Shown here: one piece after another, positions 6,648 through 13,212 of the stretch
Position numbering within the stretch: the first letter of the stretch is position 1
Layout of the letters: each line of letters opens with the position of its first letter
DNA from: Schumannella sp. 10F1B-5-1
GTDB taxonomy: Bacteria > Actinomycetota > Actinomycetes > Actinomycetales > Microbacteriaceae
NCBI RefSeq assembly: GCF_006517535.1
Contig: NZ_VHQH01000036.1
Span: forward strand, 202,638-266,637
DNA: 64,000 nt
Direction of reading: 5' to 3'
The notes under the pieces: generated by a model
Database searches by the model: none
What the model was told of the DNA's origin: nothing
Seen by the model: the letters and a program-made list of their open reading frames with translations, nothing else
Program-made: the position numbers and the translations under genes

Positions 6648-7304
6648 ATGACGCGCGTCGGATACATCTGGGTCGGGCCGCTGGAGCACAACGCCGAGTT
6701 CCAGCGCGACCTGCTGCGCGCCAAGGGCGTCGACCGGATGTTCGAGGACATCAGCGCCCACACCTCGACCCCGATCCGCAGCGAGCTGACCTCGGCGCTC
6801 GAAGAGGTCGGCCCGGGCGACACGCTCGTCGTGTGGCGTCTCGACCGCCTCGGCTCGACCATGTCGTCGGTGCTCGCGCTGCTCGAGCTGCTCGGCAAGC
6901 GCCGCGTCGGCGTCGCCACGATCGCCGAGGGTCTCGACACCTCGGGCGACGGGGGAGAGGCGCTGCTCGCCACGATCGCCGCCTTCACCCAGCTCGACCG
7001 CTGCCTGACCCGCGAGCGCACGATGGCGGGCGTCTACGCGGCCCGGGCCCGCGGTCGCGTCGGCGGACGCCCCCGCGCGCTCTCGACGACCAACGTCGAG
7101 CGCGTGATCATGATGAAGGAGCAGGGCGCCACGGTGCGCGAGATCGCCCAGGAGATGGGCACCTCGCGGGCGACCGTGTACCGCGTGCTCGAGACCGCCA
7201 CGGGCGGTCGGGATGCCGAGGCCGAAGAGCGCCGCGAGCTCACGGTGCGCTGGGCGACCCCGGCGATCGGCGACGGCACCGAGCCGCTCATCGCCGGCGA
7301 CTGA
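6648..7304 (+). CDS. Resolvase/invertase-like DNA-binding protein lacking the catalytic serine
   Basis: This 218-residue protein has the two-domain layout of small serine recombinases: a resolvase N-domain (residues 1-125), then a GRVGGRPRAL linker and a C-terminal helix-turn-helix (VREIAQEMGTSRATVYRVL, about residues 163-181). The active site appears lost. Where resolvases read GYARVST, this protein reads GYIWVGP, replacing both the arginine and the nucleophilic serine. The DRLGR motif is DRLGS. Strand exchange is therefore unlikely, and a DNA-binding or regulatory role is inferred. It stands alone, with no inverted repeats or transposase nearby, and base composition matches its neighbours, so it does not look recently acquired. 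Confidence 0.8.
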   Translation: MTRVGYIWVGPLEHNAEFQRDLLRAKGVDRMFEDISAHTSTPIRSELTSALEEVGPGDTLVVWRLDRLGSTMSSVLALLELLGKRRVGVATIAEGLDTSGDGGEALLATIAAFTQLDRCLTRERTMAGVYAARARGRVGGRPRALSTTNVERVIMMKEQGATVREIAQEMGTSRATVYRVLETATGGRDAEAEERRELTVRWATPAIGDGTEPLIAGD

Positions 7305-7496
7305 CGCTCAGAGCGCATCCCGCGCATCCCGCCCGAGATCTCCCTTCCGGAGGGCGTTCGCGCGACATGCCGCGTCACGACACGCCCGACGCGGCGTGTC
7401 GCCGACAACCCCTCCCGCGGAGTGATCTGGTGATCGTGTTCGAATCGGGATGATCGGATCTGATCCGTTTCGGACAGGTTTGTGTACTCTGTGCAC

Positions 7497-8258
7497 GTGA
7501 TCGCAGCGCAGCGACGACAGCTCATCCTCGAGACCGTGCACCGGGACGGTGCCGTGTCGATCCGCGCGCTCGCCGAGCTGCTCGACACCTCGGCCATCAC
7601 GATCCGCCGCGACCTCGACTACCTCGACTCGATCGGCCGCCTCACCCGCTCGCACGGCGGCGCCGTCAGCGGCCAGCCGCTGCACGAGTCCTCGTGGTCG
7701 GAGAAGGTCGGGCAGGCCGCCGAGGCGAAGGCGGCGATCGGCCGCGCCGCTGCCGAGCTCGTCGGCGAGGGCGACGTCGTCGTGATCGGCCCGGGCACGA
7801 CCACGGCCGAGCTCGCCCGGGCCCTGGCCGGCCGCGCCGGGCTCACGGTCTTCACGAACTCGCTCCTGGTGGCCGACATCCTGGTCGACTCGCCCGGAAA
7901 CGAGGTCGTCGTGACGGGCGGAACCCTGCGGGCCGGCATCCGGGCGCTCGTCGGCGAGGGCACGACCCGGATGCTGCGCGGGCTGCACGCCGATCTCACC
8001 TTCCTGTCGGGCAACGGCATCGACGCCGAGTTCGGGGTGTCGACGCCGAACCTCACCGTCGCCGAGACGGATCGCGCGATGGCCTCGGCGGGGCATCGCG
8101 TGGTGTCGCTCGTCGACCACACGAAGTTCGGCGAGCGCGCCGCGATCCAGACGCTCGCGCCGTCGGCGATCGACCAGGTCATCACCGATCGGGGCACGGA
8201 TGCGGCCGCGATCGCGGCCCTGTCGGCGGTCGGCATCGACGTCACGGTGGTGCCGTGA
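7497..8258 (+). CDS. DeoR-family transcriptional regulator of the adjacent sugar importer
   Basis: A 253-residue repressor-type protein. The N-terminal winged helix (RRQLILETVHRDGAVSIRAL, then TSAITIRRDLDYLDSIGRLTRSHGGA) is the DeoR signature, and the C-terminal half is the ribose-isomerase-like sugar-phosphate sensor domain (GPGTTTAELARAL near residue 95, later VDHTKFG). It is divergently spaced but co-oriented with the YtfQRT-type operon, starting 182 bases upstream of ytfQ, and so is its likely regulator. Effector is unknown, probably a phosphorylated sugar. The GTG at 7497 fits family N-termini; in-frame GTGs at 7491 and 7482 are possible. Confidence 0.9.
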   Translation: MIAAQRRQLILETVHRDGAVSIRALAELLDTSAITIRRDLDYLDSIGRLTRSHGGAVSGQPLHESSWSEKVGQAAEAKAAIGRAAAELVGEGDVVVIGPGTTTAELARALAGRAGLTVFTNSLLVADILVDSPGNEVVVTGGTLRAGIRALVGEGTTRMLRGLHADLTFLSGNGIDAEFGVSTPNLTVAETDRAMASAGHRVVSLVDHTKFGERAAIQTLAPSAIDQVITDRGTDAAAIAALSAVGIDVTVVP

Positions 8259-8439
8259 TGGCCCGCTTCGATTGCGAATCGGCAACGGCGTCCGCCGGTG
8301 CTGGACTTATGAACACGGTTTTGCAACAATCACGTCCGGACACGTTCTCTTCTGAGAGTTCGTGATCCTTTCTGAGCAGAACGGCATCCTCGCCGCTCTC
8401 GCCCACCCGGCAGTCACATCAACAAGGAAGTTGGTTCCC

Positions 8440-9510
8440 ATGGCACTCCAGCGCACCTCGCGCGGCCTGGTCGCCGCCGTCTCCCTCGCGGCGGCGGTCG
8501 GACTGATCCTCACCGGTTGCACCAACACGGGCACCGGCTCGAACACCTCGTCGGGCTCCTCCGAGCAGAAGGTCAAGTCCAGCGACGGTCCCACCTGCGA
8601 CATCTCGACCTACGGCGGCGAGAAGATCGACCTCAAGGACGCCGTCGTCGGCTTCTCGCAGTCGGAGAAGGAGGACAACCCCTTCCGCATCGCCGAGACC
8701 CAGTCGATCAAGGACGAGGCCGCCAAGATCGGCGTCAAGAAGCTGATCACCACCAACGCGCAGTCGACCCTGTCGAAGCAGATCAGCGACATCCAGGACA
8801 TGATCTCGCAGGGCGCCAACGTGCTGATCGTCGCCCCGCTCAACAGCGACGGCCTCGAGCCGGCCCTGTCGGCGGCGCGCGAGAAGAACATCCCCGTCAT
8901 CACGGTCGACCGCAAGCTCAACGCCGAGGCCTGCAAGGACTACGTCTCGTTCCTCGGATCGGACTTCGTCGAGCAGGGCAAGCGCGCCGCCGACCAGCTC
9001 ATCAAGGGCACCGGCGGCAAGGGCAAGGTCGCGATCCTGCTCGGCGCCTCGGGCAACGGCGTGACCACCGACCGCACCAAGGGCTTCGTCGACGAGATCA
9101 AGGCCGAGGCTCCCGGGATCGAGATCGTCGCCCAGCAGACCGGCGACTTCGCCCGCGACAAGGGCCAGTCGGTGACCGAGCAGCTGCTGCAGTCGAACCC
9201 CGAGATCACGGCGATCTACGCCGAGAACGACGAGATGGGACTCGGCGCCCAGGCCGCGATCATCGCCGCCGGCAAGACCCCGGGCACCGACATCCAGCTC
9301 TACTCGATCGACGGCACCAAGAACGCGGTCTCGCAGATCGTCGCCGGGCAGTACAACGGCGTCGTCGAGTCGAACCCGCGCTTCGGACCGCTGGCCTTCA
9401 AGACCCTGAAGTCGTTCCTCGCGGGTGACGCGGTCGGCCAGGACATCATCATCGAAGACGGCGAGTACGACGCCGACAACGCGAGCAGCAAGGTCGACGG
9501 GGCCTACTGA
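8440..9510 (+). CDS. ytfQ: Sugar ABC transporter substrate-binding lipoprotein, YtfQ type
   Basis: A 356-residue extracytoplasmic binding protein, anchored as a lipoprotein: a basic N-terminus, hydrophobic core and lipobox ILTGC (Cys about residue 27), then a Ser/Gly/Thr linker. The mature part is a periplasmic-binding-protein type 1 fold. Similarity to E. coli YtfQ (galactofuranose binding) is seen in FRIAETQSIKDEA, the TGDFARDKGQSVTEQLL stretch, YAENDEMGLGAQAAI and YSIDGTKNA. The ATG at 8440 has AAGGAAG 9 bases upstream. It heads an operon with an ATPase and two permeases. Ligand is inferred from family only. Confidence 0.9.
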   Translation: MALQRTSRGLVAAVSLAAAVGLILTGCTNTGTGSNTSSGSSEQKVKSSDGPTCDISTYGGEKIDLKDAVVGFSQSEKEDNPFRIAETQSIKDEAAKIGVKKLITTNAQSTLSKQISDIQDMISQGANVLIVAPLNSDGLEPALSAAREKNIPVITVDRKLNAEACKDYVSFLGSDFVEQGKRAADQLIKGTGGKGKVAILLGASGNGVTTDRTKGFVDEIKAEAPGIEIVAQQTGDFARDKGQSVTEQLLQSNPEITAIYAENDEMGLGAQAAIIAAGKTPGTDIQLYSIDGTKNAVSQIVAGQYNGVVESNPRFGPLAFKTLKSFLAGDAVGQDIIIEDGEYDADNASSKVDGAY

Positions 9511-9635: not shown

Positions 9636-11261
9636 GTGACGGTGCAGTCCCCATCCACCCCCGCGACCACGTCGACCTCGCCCGTGCTGCAGGCCCGTGG
9701 CGTGTCGAAGCGCTTCGCGGGCGTCACCGCGCTCGACGGCATCGACTTCACGGTGCTGCCCGGCGAGGCGCACGCGCTCATGGGCGAGAACGGCGCCGGC
9801 AAGTCGACGCTGATCAAGGTGCTGACCGGCGTCTACCAGCCGGATGACGGCGAGCTCGCGCTGCACGGCGAGCCCGCCCGCTTCGCCCGACCGCTCGACG
9901 CGCAGAAGGCGGGGGTGTCGACCATCTACCAGGAGGTCAACCTGATCCCCCTGATGTCGGTCGCGCAGAACATCTTCCTGGGCCGCGAGCCCCGCGGGTT
10001 CCTGGGCCTCATCGATCACCGCCGCATGTACGCCGATGCGCGCGAGCTGCTGGGCACCTACGGCATCCAGGTGGATGTGCGCCGCCCGCTGCGCAGCCTC
10101 GCCCTCGGCGTGCAGCAGATGGTCGCCCTCGCCCGCGCCGTGAGCATCAACGCGCGCGTCGTCATCATGGACGAGCCGACCTCGTCGCTCGAGACCGCCG
10201 AGGTCGAGACGCTGTTCCGGGTGATCGGCATGCTGCGCGCGCAGGGCATCGCGATCGTCTACGTCAGCCACCGCATGGATGAGATCTACCGCGTCTGCGA
10301 GAAGGTCACGGTGCTGCGCGACGGTCGGGTCGTGCACGTCGGCGACCTCGCCGACCTGCCGCGCGTCGAGCTCGTGTCGAAGATGCTCGGCCGCAGCGTC
10401 GACGCCGTCGAGAAGCGCGGTGCGACCGCGTTCGGCGAGGAGTCGCACGTGAGCGAGGCGACCCCCGTGCTCACGGCGACCGATCTCAGCCGCCGTCACC
10501 AGATCGACGGCGTCGGCCTCAGCATCCGCCCGGGCGAGGTCGTCGGACTCGGCGGCCTGCTCGGCGCGGGGCGCTCCGAGACGCTCAAGGGCATCTCGGG
10601 CGTGATGCAGCTCGACCGCGGCTCGGTCGTGATCGACGGCCAGACCGTGCGCTCGGGATCGGTGCCCGCGGCGATCCGCGCCGGCATCGTCATGCTGCCC
10701 GAGGACCGCAAGGCCGAGGGCATCATCCCGGGCCTCTCGGTGCGCGACAACATCGTGCTCGCCGCGCTGCCGCGCCTGTCGCGCGCGGGCTTCAGCTCGC
10801 GCCGCAACCAGGATGCGGTCGTCGACGTGTTCATGCGCCGCCTGCGCATCAAGGCCTCGAGTCCCGACCAGGCCGTGTCGGAGCTGTCGGGCGGCAACCA
10901 GCAGAAGGTCATGATCGCCCGCTGGCTGGCCATGAGCCCCAAGGTGCTGCTGCTCGACGAGCCGACGCGCGGCATCGACGTCGGCGCCAAGGCCGAGGTG
11001 CAGGCGCTGATCGACGAGCTCGCCAAGGAGGGCCTCGCGATCGTGCTGGTCTCGAGCGAGCTCGAGGAGGTCGTCGAGGGCGCCGACCGCGTGGTCGTGC
11101 TGCGCGACGGCCAGGTCGTGACCGAGCTGACCGGCGACCAGGTCGACGAGAAGCATCTGCTCGACGCGATCGCCGGCGACGGCGCAGCGACCTCGACCGC
11201 AGCCGCCGCATCCACTGCTTCGGATGCGGCCCCCGAGACCCCGACGGAGGAGCGCGCATGA
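9636..11261 (+). CDS. ytfR: Sugar ABC transporter ATPase with two nucleotide-binding domains, YtfR type
   Basis: This 541-residue cytoplasmic ATPase powers sugar import. Domain 1 (about residues 12-245) has Walker A GENGAGKST (about residue 50), and VIMDEPTSSLE as Walker B. Domain 2 (about 270-515) has the degenerate P-loop GGLLGAGRSE, the signature LSGGNQQKV and Walker B LLLDEPTRGIDVG. That asymmetry is typical of RbsA/XylG/YtfR proteins of the CUT2 family. A GTG start follows GAAGAAGGA. The C-terminal 25 residues are an Ala/Thr-rich tail not needed for the fold. The stop overlaps the next start (ATGA). Confidence 0.92.
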   Translation: MTVQSPSTPATTSTSPVLQARGVSKRFAGVTALDGIDFTVLPGEAHALMGENGAGKSTLIKVLTGVYQPDDGELALHGEPARFARPLDAQKAGVSTIYQEVNLIPLMSVAQNIFLGREPRGFLGLIDHRRMYADARELLGTYGIQVDVRRPLRSLALGVQQMVALARAVSINARVVIMDEPTSSLETAEVETLFRVIGMLRAQGIAIVYVSHRMDEIYRVCEKVTVLRDGRVVHVGDLADLPRVELVSKMLGRSVDAVEKRGATAFGEESHVSEATPVLTATDLSRRHQIDGVGLSIRPGEVVGLGGLLGAGRSETLKGISGVMQLDRGSVVIDGQTVRSGSVPAAIRAGIVMLPEDRKAEGIIPGLSVRDNIVLAALPRLSRAGFSSRRNQDAVVDVFMRRLRIKASSPDQAVSELSGGNQQKVMIARWLAMSPKVLLLDEPTRGIDVGAKAEVQALIDELAKEGLAIVLVSSELEEVVEGADRVVVLRDGQVVTELTGDQVDEKHLLDAIAGDGAATSTAAAASTASDAAPETPTEERA

Positions 11262-12220
11262 GCTCGGTCACCATCCCGCTGCCGCGCCAGGGCTCGGCGC
11301 TCAAGCTGCTGCAGAAGTACGGCGTCTACCTGGCGATCGTGCTCATCCTCGTGGCGAACCTGATCTTCACGCCCAACTTCTTCACGGTCGACAACCTGCG
11401 CACGCAGCTCGTGCAGGTCGTGCCGGTGCTGATCGTGGCGCTCGGCATGGCCCTCGTGATCGGCACCGAGGGCATCGACCTCTCGGTCGGCGCCGCGATG
11501 GCGATGGCGGCGGCCGTGCTGCCGCTCTACATCGGCTACGGATTCCTGCCGGCGCTGCTCATCGCGATCGTCGCCGCCCTCGTGATCGGCCTGGTCAACG
11601 GCGCGCTGATCGCCTTCATCGGCGTGCAGCCGATCGTGGCGACGCTGTCGCTCATGGTCGCCGGGCGCGGACTCGCGCTGCTCGTCGCGGGGGAGCAGCT
11701 GCGCCCCGTGATCGACCCCGGCGTGCTCGCGCTCGGGCGCGGCACGATCCTCGGCGTGCCGTGGGCCGTGCTGGTCGCGGCGGCGCTGGTCGCGATCGTC
11801 GCGGTGCTCGTGAACCGCACGACCTTCGGCAAGCAGCTCGTCGCGATCGGCGGCAACCGCCGCGCCGCCGAGCTCGCCGGCCTCCCGGTGAAGCGCATCC
11901 TGCTGGTCATCTACCTCGTCTGCGCCGGTCTCGCGGCCGTCGCCGGCATCATCGGCACGGCCCGTCTCGCGGCCTCGGTGCCGTCGACGATCGGCAACCT
12001 GATCGAGCTGTCGGCGATCACCGCCGTCGTGGTCGGCGGCACGCCGCTGAGCGGCGGCCAGGTCAAGATCGCCGGCACCGTCGCGGGCGCTCTGCTGCTG
12101 CAGATCATCACGGCGACGCTCGTGAAGCACAACGTGCCCGACGCGTACTCGCAGATCATCCAGGCGGCGATCATCGTGGTCGCGGTCTACATCCAGCGTG
12201 GGAAGGTCTTCAGCAAATGA
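11258..12220 (+). CDS. ytfT: Sugar ABC transporter permease, YtfT type
   Basis: A 320-residue polytopic membrane protein of the CUT2 (BPD_transp_2) permease family, forming half of the transmembrane channel. It has about eight to ten hydrophobic helices. The conserved segment GTEGIDLSVGAAMAMAAAV lies at residues 68-86, and VVVGGTPLSGGQVKIAGTVAGALL near the C-terminus. The GGNRRAAELAGLPV motif is the loop that contacts the ATPase. The start overlaps the end of ytfR (ATGA) and has GGAGGAG upstream; its own stop overlaps yjfF. A heterodimer with the next permease is expected. Confidence 0.9.
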   Translation: MSSVTIPLPRQGSALKLLQKYGVYLAIVLILVANLIFTPNFFTVDNLRTQLVQVVPVLIVALGMALVIGTEGIDLSVGAAMAMAAAVLPLYIGYGFLPALLIAIVAALVIGLVNGALIAFIGVQPIVATLSLMVAGRGLALLVAGEQLRPVIDPGVLALGRGTILGVPWAVLVAAALVAIVAVLVNRTTFGKQLVAIGGNRRAAELAGLPVKRILLVIYLVCAGLAAVAGIIGTARLAASVPSTIGNLIELSAITAVVVGGTPLSGGQVKIAGTVAGALLLQIITATLVKHNVPDAYSQIIQAAIIVVAVYIQRGKVFSK

Positions 12221-13212
12221 CCGCGATCGAGCCGAGTGCCGGCCCCGCTTCGTCGTCGCAGCTGGCGCGCGAGCGCGCCGTCGGCGTCGTGCAGTCGTTC
12301 GGTGCGCCCATCGTGCTGGCGATCGTCGTCATCGTCGCGGCGTTCTCGTTCCCGACGTTCTTCACGGTCACGAACCTGACGAACATCCTGCTGCAGTCGT
12401 CGTTCCTGCTGATCGTCGCGATCGGCATGACCTTCGTGATCGTGACCGGCGGCATCGACCTGTCGGTGGGATCGGTGTTCGCGCTGGGCGGCGTGCTCGC
12501 CGCCTACGCCTCGCAGTGGGGATGGGTGGCCGCGCTCGTGGTCCCGCTCGTCGTCGGAGCGGTGATCGGCGTGATCCAGGGCGCTCTCGTTGCCTGGGGC
12601 GGCATGGCGCCGTTCATCGTCACGCTCGCCGGACTGCTCGCCGTGCGGGGCATCGTGCTCGCGATCACGAACGGCGGGTCGACGACCCCGCTCATCACCG
12701 ACCCGGTGCTGAAGGGCATCGGCCAGGGCGGCTTCGCGAGCATCGAGTGGCCGGTCGTGATCGGCCTCGTGCTGCTGGTCGTGGGCATCGTGCTGCTCAC
12801 CCGCTCGCGCACCGGCCAGGGCGTGATCGCGGTCGGCGGCTCGGAGAACGCGTCGACGCTCATGGGTCTGCCCGTCGCCCGGGTGAAGCTGTCGGTCTAC
12901 GTGCTGAGCGGGCTCACCGCCTCGCTCGCGGGCGCGCTCAACGCCGCGTACACGTCGTCGGGCGTCCCGGTCGTGGGCGTCGGGCTCGAGCTGTCGGCGA
13001 TCTCGGCGGTTGTGATCGGCGGCACGCTGCTGACCGGCGGCAAGGGCTCGCTCGTCGGCACGCTCGCCGGTGTGCTGCTGCTCGGCGTCATCCAGAACGT
13101 GATCAACCAGGTCGGATCGCTCACCTCGTCGGTGCAGTCGATCGTGTCGGGCGGGTTTCTGGCGGTCGTCGTCATCATCCAGACGGTGCTGTCGCGGCAG
13201 CAGCGGCTGTAG
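12217..13212 (+). CDS. yjfF: Sugar ABC transporter permease, YjfF type
   Basis: The second CUT2 permease of the operon, 331 residues with about ten membrane helices. Key segments are VTGGIDLSVGSVFALGGVL (residues 75-93), GGSENASTLMGLPVARVKL (ATPase-contacting loop) and LSAISAVVIGGTLLTGGKGS. The GVGLELSAISAVVIGGTLL and LMGL segments resemble E. coli YjfF closely. The frame is open much further upstream, but the ATG at 12217 is chosen because it overlaps the ytfT stop (ATGA) and gives a normal family length. This completes the SBP-ATPase-permease-permease set. Confidence 0.9.
   Translation: MTAIEPSAGPASSSQLARERAVGVVQSFGAPIVLAIVVIVAAFSFPTFFTVTNLTNILLQSSFLLIVAIGMTFVIVTGGIDLSVGSVFALGGVLAAYASQWGWVAALVVPLVVGAVIGVIQGALVAWGGMAPFIVTLAGLLAVRGIVLAITNGGSTTPLITDPVLKGIGQGGFASIEWPVVIGLVLLVVGIVLLTRSRTGQGVIAVGGSENASTLMGLPVARVKLSVYVLSGLTASLAGALNAAYTSSGVPVVGVGLELSAISAVVIGGTLLTGGKGSLVGTLAGVLLLGVIQNVINQVGSLTSSVQSIVSGGFLAVVVIIQTVLSRQQRL

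Follow-up and report, generated by a model that had tools for sequence, protein, structure and literature searches.

What does a homologue of the serine recombinases do for its host once the residues that cut DNA have been replaced? The window, by which we mean the whole 64,000-nucleotide stretch analysed here, raises this question with an open reading frame, free of internal stops, for a dead serine recombinase that we call dRes (Table 1). Residues 5–137 of the protein match Pfam Resolvase (5.1e-24) and residues 140–183 match HTH_7 (3.3e-11), both above cut-off, and the best Foldseek matches of its AlphaFold2 model (mean pLDDT 85.5, pTM 0.59, with a poorly defined tail) are the Tn3 and gamma-delta resolvase structures. 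Together with retained counterparts of Arg45, Asp67 and Arg68 (Arg44, Asp66 and Arg67 in window numbering), the resolvase N-terminal domain and the C-terminal HTH have the makeup of a small serine recombinase.

The active site itself has changed. The first-pass annotation had read GYARVST as GYIWVGP and DRLGR as DRLGS, with Arg8, Ser10 and Arg71 altered, and alignments with gamma-delta resolvase and Gin (GYVRVST at the first motif), gap-free at both sites, bear this out. With gamma-delta numbering on the left and window numbering on the right, the changes are Arg8 to Trp8, Ser10 to Gly10, Thr11 to Pro11 and Arg71 to Ser70; Gln14, nearly invariant when aligned with intact relatives, is His14 here. 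In Tn3 resolvase, S10 is the nucleophile, R8 and R68 contact the scissile phosphate and R71 is proposed to do likewise, and a resolvase S10A mutant forms synaptic complexes all the same (PMC4499144, in excerpt). Near position 10 of the window protein there is no other serine that could stand in for Ser10, the earliest serine of the protein being Ser36.

Table 1. Features of the dRes locus, in window coordinates.
Feature	Position	Strand	Basis
dRes (218 aa), a dead serine recombinase proposed to regulate transcription	6648..7304	+	Pfam Resolvase and HTH_7; 13 orthologues, one clade
Codons 8–10 (Trp8-Val9-Gly10), replacing catalytic Arg8 and Ser10	6669..6677	+	gamma-delta resolvase alignment
Codon 70 (Ser), replacing catalytic Arg71	6855..6857	+	gamma-delta resolvase alignment; Ser 12/13, Thr 1/13
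C-terminal HTH, residues 138–184, with invariant GTSRAT.YR.L segment	7059..7199	+	invariant columns, 11 sequences
DeoR-family regulator	7497..8258	+	Pfam, synteny; between dRes and gafA in 11/13 dRes loci
Element E1, TGGACT – 17 bp – AACAAT, conserved spacer; candidate dRes operator	8302..8331	+	13/13 loci
Element E2, a pair of TCTGA motifs 20 bp apart; candidate operator for DeoR	8351..8375	+	motif presence versus DeoR across loci
Element E3, CAACAAGGAAGTTG, inverted repeat around likely gafA Shine-Dalgarno	8420..8433	+	16 exact copies, 14 genomes
gafA/ytfQ-like sugar-binding protein	8440..9510	+	best NCBIfam YtfQ 5.8e-54, under cut-off; PDB YtfQ 6hyh/2vk2
gafB/ytfR-like ATPase	9636..11261	+	best NCBIfam YtfR 1.6e-173, under cut-off
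gafC/ytfT-like permease	11258..12220	+	NCBIfam AraH 1e-48, YtfT 1.4e-47, both under cut-off
gafD/yjfF-like permease	12217..13212	+	best NCBIfam YjfF 3.6e-68, under cut-off

Close orthologues of dRes (E≤1e-50) were found in 12 of 398 sampled genomes of the family Microbacteriaceae, belonging to six of 85 genera and including four of the five genomes of its own genus. An order-level search of 396 genomes, some of them from the same family, returned dRes only from its own genome; the other 11 known carriers went unmatched there and hence lie outside that sample. Two named records, both from Microbacteriaceae, also carry the gene, a Frigoribacterium sp. MAG (JANYEI010000110.1; L047) and a Lacisediminihabitans sp. 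MAG (JANYGT010000048.1; L048). The 13 distinct orthologues compared throughout are the 12 from sampled genomes and L048, with L047 not counted separately.

None of these orthologues has an intact active site. Arg8 and Arg71 are lost in all 13, with an invariant Trp8 in place of the former, and at position 10 Gly is found in 11 of them, Asp in one and Ser in one; His14, Tyr6, Gln19, Asp34, Arg44, Asp66 and Arg67 are invariant as well. The sole orthologue with Ser10, from genome G222 (L036:7435-8079, minus strand), keeps Trp8 and Ser70; it also reads RART where most other orthologues read RERT. In a tree of 58 rows, in which the substituted active-site columns were left in, the 13 dRes sequences form a single clade with 100/100 support on a long stem (1.51). 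The next-best family matches, at 47% identity or less, have an intact (G/A)YxRxST motif wherever that stretch was read, and a contig scan in which 79 of the 80 listed loci were translated found the intact motif absent, among the matches listed, only from L047 and L048. A recent arrival of the gene from a phage or a plasmid is unsupported, since all matches in 174 phage records and in the best 5000 plasmid records fall below 60% identity.

Substitution rates were compared over 11 pairs, where dN/dS spans 0–0.42 in the catalytic domain (the maximum between our genome and G130), 0–0.23 in the HTH and 0.10–1.14 in the tail. Between our genome and G173, the Nei-Gojobori dN and dS are 0.027 and 0.269 in the catalytic domain, 0.010 and 0.252 in the HTH, and 0.321 and 0.496 in the tail, while G173 and G118 have a dN of 0 in both domains at dS values of 0.29 and 0.22. 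The catalytic domain is constrained though dead, the HTH more so and the tail hardly at all. Beyond the HTH (window 7200-7301), the fast-evolving tail of most orthologues contains a recurrent LTxxFxTP-like stretch. The decay of a single local copy is ruled out by the changes that the 13 orthologues have in common and by this purifying selection. The earlier statements that the HTH and fold are well kept, and that this suggests selection for a non-catalytic role, are thus both supported: HTH_7 scores above cut-off, the model matches resolvases, the HTH is conserved across the clade and both domains are under purifying selection. The best explanation of the sequences is that dRes is a domesticated small serine recombinase whose ability to cut DNA has been lost.

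Could dRes still recombine DNA, through another nucleophile or with the help of a partner subunit? The retention of Arg44, Asp66, Arg67, Gln19 and Asp34 in 13 of 13 orthologues and the Ser10 of G222 could be read in this way, and further matches to the recombinase family in G222, G173, G007, G203, G248 and G090 could supply partners. We nevertheless consider it hardly credible, because the clade as a whole has lost two catalytic arginines and, in 12 of 13 members, the nucleophile; because the only other matches in our own genome (E≤10) are two weak and partial ones over the HTH region; and because copies of E1, the putative target of dRes, are found at dispersed genes. For the last reason, we also rejected E1 copies as pairs of recombination sites, which would lie close together.

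If dRes is a domesticated protein, its neighbours may indicate what it was kept for. In the window and in all ten fetched orthologue loci, the operon downstream of dRes encodes two permeases, an ATPase and a sugar-binding protein; the DeoR gene, where present, lies between dRes and this operon, and the binding-protein gene was found at both named loci (L047 and L048) too. The window genes on the other side of dRes recur in only four of the ten fetched loci, and at L043, which encodes an intact relative at 47% identity, none of the neighbour genes of dRes was found. An orthologue of the binding protein (E≤1e-100) is present in 13 of the 398 genomes, namely the 12 carriers of dRes and G167, which has a 59% homologue. 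The YtfQ, YtfR and YjfF models are the best NCBIfam matches for three of the subunits and AraH edges out YtfT for the first permease, with all four subunits falling short of the curated cut-offs for YtfQ, YtfR, YtfT and YjfF (for YtfQ, 183 versus 510 bits). The YtfQRT/YjfF transporter, for which the name GafABCD has been proposed, binds galactofuranose and arabinofuranose (PMC10191376, in excerpt), and we predict that the operon encodes a furanose ABC importer of this type, furanoses being an uncommon ring form of sugars.

The link between dRes and the operon extends to a short DNA element. E1, a 30-bp element that reads TGGACTTATGAACACGGTTTTGCAACAATC in the window, precedes the binding-protein gene at all 13 loci. 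Over the 21 sites used for a matrix, 14 of its 30 positions do not vary, including nine within the spacer. A relaxed E1 pattern allowing up to 3 mismatches, searched in the 398 genomes, matched all 12 dRes genomes and one of the 386 others (G310, with a single site at 3 mismatches), and a reversed-pattern control matched two of 398. A stricter pattern again matched 12 of 12 dRes genomes and left G167 and G048 unmatched, and a matrix scan of 1.05 Mb of other loci gave no site above 10 bits. The match in G310 is probably due to chance, as is an E1-like copy with 3 mismatches at a PhyH gene of G203.

Beyond the operon, E1 recurs at a second kind of gene. Eight genomes (G000, G118, G173, G007, G203, G091, G341 and G248) have an E1 copy that is unlinked to the operon and lies upstream of a gene for a GH2 glycosidase. 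Pfam, applied to four of these eight proteins, finds GH2 domains in them, with Laminin_G_3 at the C-terminus, and by eye their N-termini resemble signal peptides. Among solved structures, the one closest to the GH2 protein of our own genome is beta-D-galactofuranosidase 2 (9j6n, E 3.8e-157, over residues 148–739), so that its predicted function matches the furanose-type transporter. Both GH2_18, which includes 9J6M, and GH2_19 are described as furanosidases (PMC12243196, in excerpt). On sequence grounds, the GH2 proteins are apparently secreted and beta-galactofuranosidase-like.

The association of E1 with GH2 genes also holds in genomes where the site is weaker. A matrix scan, in which the eight GH2 sites formed part of the matrix, placed an E1-like site of 22 bits at the GH2 gene of G222, where the fit needs one inserted base, and one of 33 bits at that of G090, between the divergent dRes and GH2 genes. 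GH2 proteins of at least 54% identity, a line drawn post hoc, are encoded in 10 of the 12 dRes genomes and all ten have an E1 or E1-like site, while G130 and G029 have only relatives at 37–38%; the 49% GH2 paralogues of G000 and G173 gave no E1-like site in the matrix scan. GH2 relatives (54–58%) adjoin the locus itself in G090 (L041), where the gene is divergent from dRes, and in G167 (L156), where it follows the binding-protein gene; this proximity supports a functional link. The GH2 reading frame of the G341 MAG (G341:C211:38237-40003) contains one in-frame TAG. In G248 (L186:2278-5493), a 3-mismatch E1-like site precedes a gene for a 1072-residue glycoside hydrolase that is MGH1-like and contains a Laminin_G domain, an apparently secreted protein and possibly a third member of the regulon.

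Which protein would E1 serve? The DeoR-family regulator has to be weighed here, with dRes then incidental, since in 11 of 13 loci its gene separates dRes from the operon. The loci that depart from this arrangement speak against it. In G222 and G029 no DeoR gene was found by genome search (E≤1e-40; at 95–96% completeness of these assemblies the absence is uncertain), and both genomes keep E1 and have lost E2. Conversely, in G167, which has DeoR (57%), the binding protein (59%) and GH2 (58%), there is no dRes (E≤1e-50) and no E1 in the 18 kb around these genes. At the 11 loci with DeoR, T(C/T)TGA is present in both copies in eight and in one copy in three. Across the loci compared, E1 tracks dRes and E2 tracks DeoR, and we rejected DeoR as the E1-binding protein on the strength of G222, G029 and G167, which make regulation of E1 by DeoR very improbable. 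Upstream of the DeoR gene (window ~7430-7480), GATC/TGATC repeats can be seen by eye in most of the 11 loci and may be a DeoR autoregulatory site.

E1 could also be bound by another regulator encoded elsewhere, with dRes a passenger or in some other local role. Resolvase-type dyads or inverted repeats were not found in E1 (the best centre over the 21 sites has 47% complementary positions), so that it lacks the dyad symmetry looked for in an operator, and the tie between dRes and E1 is one of distribution and adjacency. We regard this as distinctly unlikely all the same, since the 12 genomes with E1 among the 398 are those with dRes, bar the one 3-mismatch match in G310; since dRes stays upstream of the operon under purifying selection; and since E1 is missing from G167, which encodes DeoR, a GH2 protein and the binding protein and has no dRes. 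Two features of a candidate regulator are thus present, a gene that adjoins the operon across genera and an operator-like element that is co-distributed with it and lies at matching genes.

From the clade-wide catalytic loss, the purifying selection, the operon linkage and the co-distribution with E1, we infer that dRes is a dedicated transcription regulator of a furanose regulon, a reading that we put at a probability of about 0.74. The regulon would consist of the adjoining GafABCD-type importer and, at another chromosomal site, an apparently secreted GH2 beta-galactofuranosidase. A dRes dimer most likely binds E1, which would act as the promoter with TGGACT and AACAAT as its hexamers 17 bp apart, and bound dRes would exclude RNA polymerase for as long as neither the sugar nor a breakdown product is there. 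A DeoR-type second repressor with E2 as its own operator would add control in most species. The E1 hexamers are loosely promoter-like, each with four of six consensus bases, and a sigma-70 consensus scan, in which at least 9 of 12 bases were needed, called no promoter at E1; for this reason we lowered our estimate from 0.77. The first-pass annotation had offered a DNA-binding regulator or an architectural protein as possible roles. The regulator is the one we favour, because of the linkage to a single furanose transporter operon and the presence of E1 at matching genes, and a general architectural role fits this distribution less well.

Bound at E1, the same protein might activate the gaf and GH2 genes instead of repressing them. 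Off-consensus hexamers at which no promoter is called are what activator-dependent promoters look like, and the nine invariant spacer positions would suit an activator too. If E1 is a promoter, however, its 17-bp spacer would need no distortion, and a site that overlaps the core promoter would fit occlusion better, so that we consider activation possible and rather doubtful.

Repression by a bound dRes would have a precedent in the resolvases. Tn3 resolvase bound at res autoregulates tnpR and tnpA, and the TnpR proteins of Tn3 and gamma-delta, which have the same fold and HTH type as dRes, control transcription at res promoters (PMC7157771, in excerpt). TnpR is an active recombinase and controls its own transposon's genes at res sub-sites, whereas in dRes Arg8, Ser10 and Arg71 are gone and the linkage is to sugar genes of the host. 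In none of the 12 genomes does the dRes promoter have an E1 copy within 3 mismatches, and classical autoregulation is therefore not seen, although the weak GH2 site of G090 stands between GH2 and the divergent dRes gene. dRes may work like a resolvase-type repressor, yet its sequence lacks residues by which an active recombinase is defined.

Bacterial sugar regulators belong to few families (LacI, DeoR, AraC, GntR, ROK and others). E. coli GafABCD (YtfQRT-YjfF) resembles the window operon in the kind of transporter and in its sugar-linked control, and the regulators named for it are GalR, GalS and AraC (PMC10191376, in excerpt). If our reading is right, the window operon would answer to a recombinase-derived sugar regulator, an unusual origin, for which the regulon and a candidate operator are already in hand. 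To our knowledge, none of GalR, GalS and AraC is a recombinase homologue. Domesticated enzymes of mobile elements are, like dRes, kept by their hosts under purifying selection, and a review of such enzymes gives serine recombinases roles of the kind of resolution, inversion and integration or excision, with no catalytically dead sugar regulator among them (PMC8987985, in excerpt). In titles and the openings of abstracts we found no report of a catalytically dead serine recombinase acting as a regulator, in a search that most subscription papers lay outside.

dRes would then be a clear example of a possible route from DNA-cutting enzyme to transcription factor, in which the residues lost, the residues kept and the target can all be named. 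Other genes annotated as 'recombinase family protein' may hide regulators, which positions 8, 10 and 71 together with genome context could reveal, and the locus marks a predicted system for galactofuranose or arabinofuranose utilisation in Microbacteriaceae. More speculatively, the former active site could have become an effector pocket for a furanose or its phosphate, since Tyr6, Trp8, His14, Gln19, Asp34, Arg44, Asp66 and Arg67 are invariant in the 13 orthologues. If a sugar-sensing site derived from the active site governed the DNA binding of the same protein, dRes would be a new class of one-component regulator; we think this unlikely.

Read on its bottom strand, E1 contains TGTCCGAAA or TGTCCAAAA (TGTCC(G/A)AAA) in 16 of the 21 sites, that is, in 10 of 13 gafA sites, our own not among them, and in six of eight GH2 sites, our own among them. 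TGTCCGAAA also starts the stretch upstream of a gene identical to that of gamma-delta resolvase in L207, a stretch that we take to be site I of res. We set this likeness to gamma-delta res aside as evidence, since it is short, was noticed post hoc and is absent from our own gafA site. We also rejected looping of the DNA from E1 to E3 by a resolvase-like tetramer, as the helical phasing of the E1–E3 distances, which were derived by hand, is weak (0.04 at 10.5 bp in a thinned set, 0.08 with a variable period).

The 14-mer of E3, CAACAAGGAAGTTG, has 16 exact copies in the 14 genomes searched, all of them at genes preceded by E1 (11 gafA and five GH2), and it may be a regulon-specific translational element or a second DNA element. 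Its loop holds the likely Shine-Dalgarno sequence; the gafA copy of G341 has one base changed, and in G167 the arms differ in sequence yet still pair.
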